Assembly (NCBI GenBank): GCA_017446025.1
Contig: JAFSRR010000018.1
Span: 1 to 34,814 of the forward strand
From: Bacteroidales bacterium
GTDB taxonomy: Bacteria > Bacteroidota > Bacteroidia > Bacteroidales > UBA1402
DNA length: 34,814 bases
Direction: 5' to 3'
Below the pieces are notes generated by a model. That model saw nothing but the letters and a program-made list of their open reading frames with translations, had not been told where the DNA came from and searched no databases. The translations under genes and the position numbers were made by a program. Position 1 is the first letter of the stretch. Every line of letters begins with the position of its first letter. Positions 25,423 to 27,914 of this stretch are shown here, piece after piece.

Positions 25423-25456
25423 AAAAGCCCGAATGAACAACGTTCGGGCTTTTTTC
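25423..25456 (+). terminator. Intrinsic terminator after the TPR lipoprotein
   Basis: Perfect 11-bp stem AAAAGCCCGAA/TTCGGGCTTTT (25423-25433 with 25443-25453), 9-nt loop, run of six T. The preceding A tract would let it also act from the other strand, but no minus-strand gene ends here. Confidence 0.9.
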
Positions 25457-25496
25457 TGACGCTCCCGATCCATCTACCCTTGTATCCCTCTGTATT

Positions 25497-26588
25497 ATGA
25501 CAGAACTATCGGCAAACACCCGACTCAAGCGCGTCCCCTCCGAACGCCATGCCTCTTTCTACCGGTTACAGACCGAAGGCCTGCACAACGAATACTACAT
25601 CATCAGCAGTGAAGGAACCCGTCGGCTGATGTCCTCTCCCGAAGTGGTCGGATACGAATCCTACCTGGCCATGCAGAGTTCCACCACTGCTGCCCTGCGC
25701 TCCCTGTTCCGCAAACAGAAACAGGAAAAGGTGGACATCCTCACCATCCTGCGCGGCGGACTGAACTACCCCTTGGAAGAATGCTGTTACAAAGCCGGCC
25801 TGAAGGTCCCCAACATGAACTTCATCTCCTGCGAGCGGACCATCAAGGACGGGGTCATCACCGGCCTGGACATCAAATACGAAAAGCTGCACATTGCCAA
25901 AGGCGTCACCATGATGATCGGTGATATCATCGCCACGGGCGACACCCTGCGCATGTGCCTGCACGAAGTCGTCGATTTCTTCTACCAGCACGGCGGCTCC
26001 ATCAAGCGCATCATCTTCTTCACCATCGGCGGCACCAAGGCCATCGAGGTGATGGAAGACCTGGCCGGACACCTCAGGGAGCGCTTCCCCGAATTCGAGT
26101 GCTTCCAGTGTGTCTTCTACGAAGGCATCTTCACCATCTACCAAGACAAAGGCGTGACGGGGGTCAACGTCCCCGAAATCGACTTCGGCTGGAAGGGTGG
26201 CGTCATTTCGCCCGAGTTCCGCCACTATATGCTTTCCTACAGCGAAAACGCCCTGTACGAGAAATGCATCATCTACGACGGCGGGGCCCGGCGCTACGAA
26301 ATCCCGGTGCACTACGAAGAAGTGATCGGCTATTGGAAAGACTTGCTGGCCGTTGCCGACAAGGCCGATTTCCAAGCCTTCGTCGCCGAGAAGATAGGTT
26401 ATGAAAGAAACATCTCCTACGAAGACTGGCTCAACGTGACCTATTTCAACGGCCTGAACAACCTGCGTCCGCTCTACCTGCAGGAGCGCGCCTTTGTGGC
26501 ACGCGCTTCCCGGCGCAAGCTGAAGGATATTTGCCGACAGCGCATCAGGGAAGTCAAGAGAACTCTCGGAAGAAAATACATCATCTAA
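25497..26588 (+). CDS. Phosphoribosyltransferase-like protein, unclassified
   Basis: A 363-aa protein with a type I phosphoribosyltransferase core: ILTILRGGLNYPLEE (81-95) fits the pyrophosphate loop, and VTMMIGDIIATGDTL (137-151) fits the PRPP-binding motif of hydrophobic residues, acidic pair, then a Gly/Thr loop. The first acid of the usual ED/DD pair is Gly142. It is much longer than APRT, HPRT or UPRT (about 180-210 aa): the C-terminal 170 residues (with IYQDKGVTGVN, EKCIIYDGGARRYEIP) match nothing I recognise. The codB-type permease follows after 11 bp, so a salvage step for the imported base is the natural inference. A weak promoter-like TACCCTTG lies at 25475-25482, too close to the ATG to be convincing. 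Actual reaction unknown. Confidence 0.72.
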   Translation: MTELSANTRLKRVPSERHASFYRLQTEGLHNEYYIISSEGTRRLMSSPEVVGYESYLAMQSSTTAALRSLFRKQKQEKVDILTILRGGLNYPLEECCYKAGLKVPNMNFISCERTIKDGVITGLDIKYEKLHIAKGVTMMIGDIIATGDTLRMCLHEVVDFFYQHGGSIKRIIFFTIGGTKAIEVMEDLAGHLRERFPEFECFQCVFYEGIFTIYQDKGVTGVNVPEIDFGWKGGVISPEFRHYMLSYSENALYEKCIIYDGGARRYEIPVHYEEVIGYWKDLLAVADKADFQAFVAEKIGYERNISYEDWLNVTYFNGLNNLRPLYLQERAFVARASRRKLKDICRQRIREVKRTLGRKYII

Positions 26589-26599
26589 TCTCTTATTTT

Positions 26600-27853
26600 A
26601 TGAATACGACTAAAACCAACGATGCGGACTATACAACCGGCAAGGTTGCGTCGACGGGCCGCAAAAGCAATTTGAGCATGTTTATGATCATGCTGGGTTT
26701 CACCTTCTTCTCGGCCAGTATGTGGGCCGGGCAGACGCTGGCCGGCGGGCTGGACTTCTGGGGCTTCTGTGCCGCCCTGTTGCTGGGTGGCGCCATCCTG
26801 GGAGCCTACACCGGCTCTCTGGGTTATATCGGTGCTGAGAGCGGTCTGACGCTTGACATGCTGGCCCAGCGCAGTTTCGGCAAAAAAGGCAGCTGGCTGC
26901 CCAGCGCCATGATCAGTTTCACACAGATCGGCTGGTTCGGCGTCGGCCTGGCCATGTTTGCCATCCCCGTCGCCAAGGAGATCATGCACCTGGATGTCAC
27001 GCCCGACTCCATGCCCTGGCAGGGTTACGCCCTGGTGGTCGTGGCCGGTATCCTGATGACTTCGACGGCTTATTTCGGCATCAAGAGCCTGACCCTGATC
27101 AGCTATATCGCCGTGCCCCTGGTGGCCATTCTCGGCACCGTGGCCATGATCATGGCTGTAAACCGCGGTGACGCCGGTCTGGTAGAACAGTTCTCGCGCG
27201 GTGTCAAGGACATGTCGGTCATCGCCGGCGCCGGTTTGGTCATCGGCAGCTTTGTCTCGGGCGGTACGGCCACACCCAACTTCACCCGTTTTGCCAAAAA
27301 CGGCAAGGTGGGCCTGTGGGTCACTGTGGTGGCCTTCTTCCTGGGCAACAGCCTGATGTTCTTCTTCGGAGCCGTTTCGAGCATCTACGTGGGCGGTAAC
27401 GATATCTTCGAAGTCATGCTCAACCTCAACCTGTTCTACATCGCCATCCTGGTACTGGGCCTGAACATCTGGACCACCAACGACAATGCCCTGTATTCCG
27501 GCGGCTTGGGACTGTCCAATATCTTCGGTCTGAGCAAAAAGACCATGGTGCTGATTTCCGGTATCCTGGGCACTGTGGCAGCCGTATGGCTCTATTGGAA
27601 TTTCTGCGGCTGGCTCAACGTGCTCAACTGCACCCTGCCTCCCGTCGGCATCATCTTGGTACTCAGCTATTTCATGAACCGCAAGGCCTATCTCAACGAC
27701 GAGATGAAAATTGTTCAGGTCAACTGGTGGGCTGTCATCGGCGTCGTACTGGGAGCTGTTGTGGCCAACCTTGTCAAATGGGGCATCCCCTCCATCAACG
27801 GCATGGTCACCGCCGCCATCATCTTCCTCATTGGCGAAAAGCTGCGCAAATAA
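26600..27853 (+). CDS. codB: NCS1-family cytosine/nucleobase permease (CodB-like)
   Basis: Inner-membrane Na+- or H+-coupled importer of cytosine or a related base. The 417-aa protein is close to E. coli CodB (419 aa), with about 12 hydrophobic helices and NCS1 features: MWAGQTLAGGLDFWGF in helix 1, SFTQIGWFGVGLAM in helix 3, GSFVSGGTATPNFTRF near helix 6 and NIWTTNDNALYSGGLGLS around helix 8. The ATG at 26600 was chosen because the upstream frame would overlap the preceding gene and lacks homology. It forms a two-gene unit with the phosphoribosyltransferase-like gene. No cytosine deaminase (codA) is in the window, so the substrate stays a family-based guess. Confidence 0.88.
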   Translation: MNTTKTNDADYTTGKVASTGRKSNLSMFMIMLGFTFFSASMWAGQTLAGGLDFWGFCAALLLGGAILGAYTGSLGYIGAESGLTLDMLAQRSFGKKGSWLPSAMISFTQIGWFGVGLAMFAIPVAKEIMHLDVTPDSMPWQGYALVVVAGILMTSTAYFGIKSLTLISYIAVPLVAILGTVAMIMAVNRGDAGLVEQFSRGVKDMSVIAGAGLVIGSFVSGGTATPNFTRFAKNGKVGLWVTVVAFFLGNSLMFFFGAVSSIYVGGNDIFEVMLNLNLFYIAILVLGLNIWTTNDNALYSGGLGLSNIFGLSKKTMVLISGILGTVAAVWLYWNFCGWLNVLNCTLPPVGIILVLSYFMNRKAYLNDEMKIVQVNWWAVIGVVLGAVVANLVKWGIPSINGMVTAAIIFLIGEKLRK

Positions 27854-27872: not shown

Positions 27873-27914
27873 AGACAGGGCGGCTCGGTCTTGAGTCGCC
27901 CTGTCTGCTTTTTT
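27873..27914 (+). terminator. Intrinsic terminator after codB
   Basis: A 14-bp stem AGACAGGGCGGCTC/GAGTCGCCCTGTCT (27873-27886 with 27893-27906, one G-T pair), loop GGTCTT, then six T (27909-27914). It separates codB from the convergent lolD. Confidence 0.88.

Follow-up and report, generated by a model that had tools for sequence, protein, structure and literature searches.

A UPRT-fold protein encoded beside CodB in rumen Bacteroidales is a candidate cytosine phosphoribosyltransferase

In the codBA system of Escherichia coli, the CodB permease is co-encoded with an enzyme that consumes its base, the deaminase CodA. Uracil phosphoribosyltransferase (UPRT; Upp; PF14681, TIGR01091) acts on a base directly, but cytosine yields no product with the M. 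tuberculosis enzyme (PMC3570474). Two papers from 2021 state that a cytosine phosphoribosyltransferase has been identified in no organism (PMC8497467, PMC8842674); one of them sets a synthetic enzyme of this kind as a goal and discusses its absence as part of an argument that CTP synthesis coordinates cell growth. Under other spellings, too, we found no such enzyme in the open-licence literature; the activity may nevertheless have been described in older publications. Here we describe a gene pair from a Bacteroidales genome bin (GCA_017446025.1; 2.1 Mb, 81% complete) whose nearest named relatives are rumen Bacteroidales bins. The pair lies in a window of 34,814 nucleotides, the whole stretch of DNA that was analysed, which is part of contig C69 (JAFSRR010000018.1), and it encodes a phosphoribosyltransferase (PRT)-like protein of 363 residues and a CodB-type permease (Table 1). 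As in codBA, CodB is co-encoded with a putative base-consuming enzyme and the coding regions overlap or nearly do so; unlike in codBA, a PRT-like enzyme takes the place of the deaminase.

We consider it rather probable that the pair forms a cytosine salvage unit leading directly from cytosine to cytidine monophosphate (CMP). CodB would import cytosine with a cation, and the 363-residue protein would join the base to phosphoribosyl pyrophosphate (PRPP) to give CMP and pyrophosphate (PPi). This single step would trap cytosine with no need to deaminate it to uracil first, and CMP kinase would then make CDP. On the evidence assembled below, all of it comparative, the PRT-like protein is probably catalytic and its base is probably cytosine. 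Of the roles that an initial annotation of this DNA had raised, import of a base followed by its direct trapping is the one best supported, and the evidence narrows the base to cytosine.

The two genes look like one transcription unit, because the stop codon of the PRT gene and the ATG of the permease gene at 26600 (stop at 27853) are only 11 base pairs (bp) apart, a hairpin with a T-run precedes the pair and a terminator-like hairpin follows it. The element at 25426-25458, whose hairpin is also carried by the L006 and L007 loci, sets the pair apart from the upstream gene. Reading frame 25497-26588 on the forward strand, its PRPP-loop motif with Gly142 in place of the usual first acid, and the permease 11 bp downstream are all as initially annotated.

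Homologs with intact loops occur at 37 distinct loci, comprising 33 from a scan of the genome collection, the window, L004 and the divergent L005 and L055 (L002 and L003 repeat L006 and L007). Besides rumen Bacteroidales, the hosts include a few species that are more distant. At every one of the 37 loci codB lies directly downstream on the same strand, at a distance of -14 to +57 bp and mostly with an 8-bp overlap. The pairing is not due to chance, given its recurrence at so many distinct loci and in different species; as the pair sits in at least eight gene neighbourhoods unrelated to one another, it has been kept while its surroundings changed. Of 393 genomes sampled evenly from the order, three contain an intact PRT, and a CodB above the NCBIfam cut-off occurs in those three and in no other. 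G001, a genome of the window's genus that is 96% complete, has neither protein. The constant codB neighbourhood that the initial annotation had proposed to survey is therefore a property of the intact-loop homologs; none of three relatives that lack the PPi and PRPP loops (L056, L057 and L058) has a CodB nearby. Two of these loop-less relatives (L056:4610-5566 and L057:5020-5979) lie between trmD and pyrD-pyrK, a position tested in L056, and may be pyrimidine-related pseudoenzymes. The third (L058:4812-5708), from a different family of the order, is more divergent, with ~21% identity to the L055 protein. A mobile or viral origin was also considered and rejected, with no relative in the plasmids or viral contigs searched.

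The permease itself scores 432.6 bits against the NCBIfam cytosine permease model NF008241 (cut-off 326), and its sole sequence match in the PDB is CodB (7QOA). In the structural study of CodB, a cation-coupled importer, Gln105 and Trp108 are essential for transport, Phe204 and Phe33 contact cytosine, and the contact made by Asn280 is mediated by water; cytosine is the best ligand of the P. vulgaris protein, purine bases are not bound, and uracil and isocytosine barely stabilised CodB (PMC9379551). When mapped onto 7QOA, every CodB that adjoins a PRT gene contains the equivalents of Gln105, Trp108, Phe204 and Phe33. The NIWTTNDN stretch, with the Asn residues of the Asn280 region, is kept in these proteins and the Na2-site residues Gly29 and Phe32 are conserved, while Ala207, a main-chain contact in 7QOA, is replaced by Gly (Gly221). 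Elsewhere in the phylum, two CodB-like permeases (L126:3288-4571 and L127:3463-4608) carry an altered sodium/cytosine-site motif, NIWTTQDN, and have no adjoining deaminase or PRT.

Judged by profile searches, the PRT-like protein is a new family. The window protein alone matches neither Pfam nor NCBIfam at E<1, nor any PDB chain by sequence, so that full-length membership of a known family was rejected; the clear full-length match to a characterised family that would have spoken against the initial annotation did not appear. Among 22 aligned members, weak matches to the UPRT model occur in three (best 2.6e-4), the window protein not among them. PRTase-CE (PF24390), another candidate, matches five of the 22 without significance (best 0.014) and does no better than Pribosyltran (0.0022) or UPRTase (0.021), and the PRT loci have no conflict-system context of the PRTase-CE kind. 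When profiles are compared with hhalign, the family aligns with UPRT at an E value of 3.1e-4, and the PPi and PRPP loops of the two coincide. All 22 members keep the PRPP-loop pattern GD-x-x-A-(T/S)-G, in which Gly142 sits at the position of the first acid of most phosphoribosyltransferases, and Arg114, Tyr128 and Glu209-Gly210 are also invariant or nearly so.

An AlphaFold model built with 22 sequences (predicted local distance difference test, pLDDT, 87.5; predicted template modelling score, pTM, 0.89) is confident and places the protein among those of UPRT fold, as a diverged and enlarged one. The best 14 matches by Z score to solved structures are all UPRTs (Z 11.9-13.8 over 179-195 residues, at 2.7-3.3 A), followed at Z of 9.8 or less by adenine and hypoxanthine enzymes and PyrR (9.6). 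Foldseek agrees with this ranking: its top six matches are UPRTs, and the top PDB matches are all phosphoribosyltransferases. Shared with UPRT are an ILR-x-GL PPi loop, an ATG-type PRPP loop and D-(A/G)-G-x-R near the base site. Unlike UPRT, the protein has 363 rather than ~208 residues, falls below the Pfam and NCBIfam cut-offs, has GD for DP in the PRPP loop and CIIY for PGLG, and carries an insertion before the base loop as well as C-terminal helices. The fold match spans residues from about 22 to 270, and only the last ~90 have no known counterpart; the initial view that the C-terminal half could not be assigned thus holds for those residues and is superseded for the rest. Predicted alone, the C-terminal extension forms five helices at low confidence (pLDDT 73, pTM 0.49). 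A second catalytic domain at this end was rejected, there being no PDB match below E 4, a result that does not show a new fold. Given the extent of the UPRT-fold match, the extra length consists of an N-terminal part, the insertion and the helical tail, with no second enzyme that can be named.

The uracil loop of UPRT, PGLGDAGD, is absent from the family, and all members have C-(I/T)-I-Y-D-(G/A)-G-(A/S)-R instead. Across the 22 aligned sequences the loop reads E-K/R-C-I/T-I-Y-D-G/A-G-A/S-R, with E255, C257, I259, Y260, D261, G263 and R265 invariant, where the UPRT counterpart is YIIPGLGDAGDR. The positions through which UPRT selects uracil are I229 and G234 in the T. gondii enzyme, whose main chain contacts O4 and N3-H of the pyrimidine there (PMC10970046); with D-(A/G)-G-x-R as the anchor, the corresponding residues here are Glu255 and Tyr260. 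When several UPRTs are aligned with the model by structure, the alignments stop at its residues 267-271, consistent with this register to within about one residue. A switch to cytosine might call for a loop rebuilt in this way, with its Glu invariant, and Glu255 and Tyr260 may be the residues that turn base selection from uracil to cytosine.

Host metabolism was searched in 30 genomes, 29 of them hosts; they are metagenome bins, many of them incomplete. E. coli CodA has no match in these genomes, in a search that did not include yeast-type or unrecognised cytosine deaminases. The NCBIfam cytosine deaminase model (cut-off 438) hit nothing in the hosts beyond short fragments scoring 37.5 bits or less, with a positive E. 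coli control. The initial observation that no cytosine deaminase lies nearby can be extended, no CodA having been found in the whole window bin at its 81% completeness. CMP kinase, which the proposed route would use, is found in 27 of the 29 hosts, including the window's genome. That genome also encodes HPRT, APRT and OPRT homologs, a xanthine-PRT-like protein and a ComF-type protein, so that the ordinary purine and orotate reactions are covered elsewhere. In 22 of 29 hosts a canonical UPRT scores 259 bits or more, and 26 hosts have one or more matches above the cut-off; in G000, G002 and G023, all incomplete bins, none was found. Besides the canonical protein, many hosts contain a second UPRT homolog at about 112-131 bits to PF14681 (for example, G524:C30:101842-102450).

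Several observations weigh against the cytosine salvage reading. In the phylum sample, the above-cut-off CodB-like permeases of G129 and G444 adjoin neither CodA nor a PRT-like protein, and CodB-like genes can therefore occur without the latter; the expectation that CodB proteins of other Bacteroidota adjoin CodA failed with these two. The register of the base loop is certain to about one residue only, in the least certain part of the model (pLDDT about 57-75), and Glu255 may be structural, because it is retained in two relatives without catalytic loops. Finally, uracil and isocytosine also inhibit cytosine uptake by P. vulgaris CodB (PMC9379551), and a uracil role is conceivable in the window's genome and in G002, since no above-cut-off UPRT was found there. 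The UPRT-like predicted fold and the bins without UPRT would likewise suit a phosphoribosyltransferase for another small base admitted by CodB, be it uracil, isocytosine or a cytosine analogue. We regard such an enzyme as unlikely: most hosts already carry a canonical UPRT, the uracil loop PGLGD has become C-(I/T)-I-Y-D in every member, and CodB, which those two bases barely stabilise, keeps all its cytosine side chains.

Still less credence is given to a sensor akin to PyrR, in which the fold would bind PRPP and a pyrimidine, catalyse little, and control either the operon that encodes it or pyrimidine genes. PyrR shares the type I phosphoribosyltransferase fold and the pyrimidine theme, and a sensor could account for the enlarged C-terminus, for the persistence of loop-less relatives, two of them beside pyrD-pyrK, and for the conserved leader hairpin with which the unit begins in most relatives (see below). 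The PPi and PRPP loops are, however, invariant in every CodB-linked member, beyond what binding alone requires; the predicted structure is clearly nearer to UPRT than to PyrR (13.8 versus 9.6), no nucleic-acid-binding family was found, and the CodB linkage sets this family apart from PyrR. Phosphoribosyltransferase reactions are reversible in principle, and the protein might run in reverse or act hydrolytically, for instance by removing cytosine from CMP for export through CodB. We hold this to be very improbable, as CodB is known to import (PMC9379551) and the Na2-site residues checked, Gly29 and Phe32, are conserved here. Direct cytosine salvage is accordingly the reading we prefer.

Upstream of the pair, most relatives outside the window's genus carry a TAnnTTTG box, which we take to be a Bacteroidetes-type -7 box, then within ~4 bases CCCGRTTA-loop-TAATCGGG and almost immediately the start codon. 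The leader lies 0-80 bases upstream of the PRT start in L008, L009, L012, L023, L031, L035-L038 and others, and in L004 the start codon is inside its stem. In 7 of 10 genomes searched the exact pattern occurs once and nowhere else, and with this single occurrence a shared pyrimidine regulon signal was rejected for the exact pattern. A proven RNA structure was rejected as well, covariation being no better than chance; because covariation does not separate the two, a DNA operator is as possible as an RNA hairpin. The leader could thus provide nucleotide-responsive control through start-site choice or a hairpin, or be a repressor operator. It recalls E. coli pyrC, for which a passage of PMC5730371 cites nucleotide-sensitive start-site choice as controlling translation, and the arrangement of codBA, cited as UTP-sensitive in a passage of PMC6245113. 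The window's genus lacks the leader hairpin. Positions 25480-25512 of the window form a weak 5-bp hairpin around the start codon (TCTGT-ATTATG-ACAGA; z-score -1.36), and no Rfam family, riboswitches included, matches anywhere in the window.

Table 1. Positions of the gene pair and its features in the window
Feature	Position	Strand	Basis or remark
UPRT-fold phosphoribosyltransferase-like protein gene, 363 residues	25497..26588	+	proposed cytosine phosphoribosyltransferase (candidate)
PPi-loop motif ILRGGLNY, residues 84-91	25746..25769	+	ILRGGLN invariant in 22/22 aligned members; last residue Y or F
PRPP-loop motif MIGDIIATGDTL, residues 140-151	25914..25949	+	G142, D143, A146, G148 invariant
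Insertion relative to UPRT, about residues 215-251, between FYEGIF strand and base loop	26139..26249	+	UPRT lengths and motifs, secondary structure of the model
Proposed base-recognition loop LYEKCIIYDGGARRY, residues 253-267, equivalent of UPRT YIIPGLGDAGDRIF	26253..26297	+	alignment, UPRT motif, structural end points
C-terminal helical extension, about residues 269-363, no counterpart found	26301..26585	+	structure prediction
CodB-type cytosine:cation symporter gene, 417 residues	26600..27853	+	NCBIfam match; cytosine-site side chains conserved
Likely intrinsic terminator of upstream gene, AGCCCGAA..TTCGGGCT and T-run	25426..25458	+	read in sequence; stem from hairpin scan
Intrinsic terminator after codB, 15-pair stem and T-run	27873..27906	+	terminator-like hairpin

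We put at about an even chance the fuller proposal, in which the family would be the first cytosine phosphoribosyltransferase from nature, with a UPRT fold and a rebuilt base pocket, always accompanied by CodB, salvaging cytosine to CMP in one step and, in many species, under a nucleotide-responsive start site or leader hairpin. If true, its existence would contradict the published statements that no organism is known to have a cytosine phosphoribosyltransferase. It would also reveal a path to CMP independent of UTP and CTP synthase, and a second option besides CodA would become available for the selection or activation of 5-fluorocytosine.
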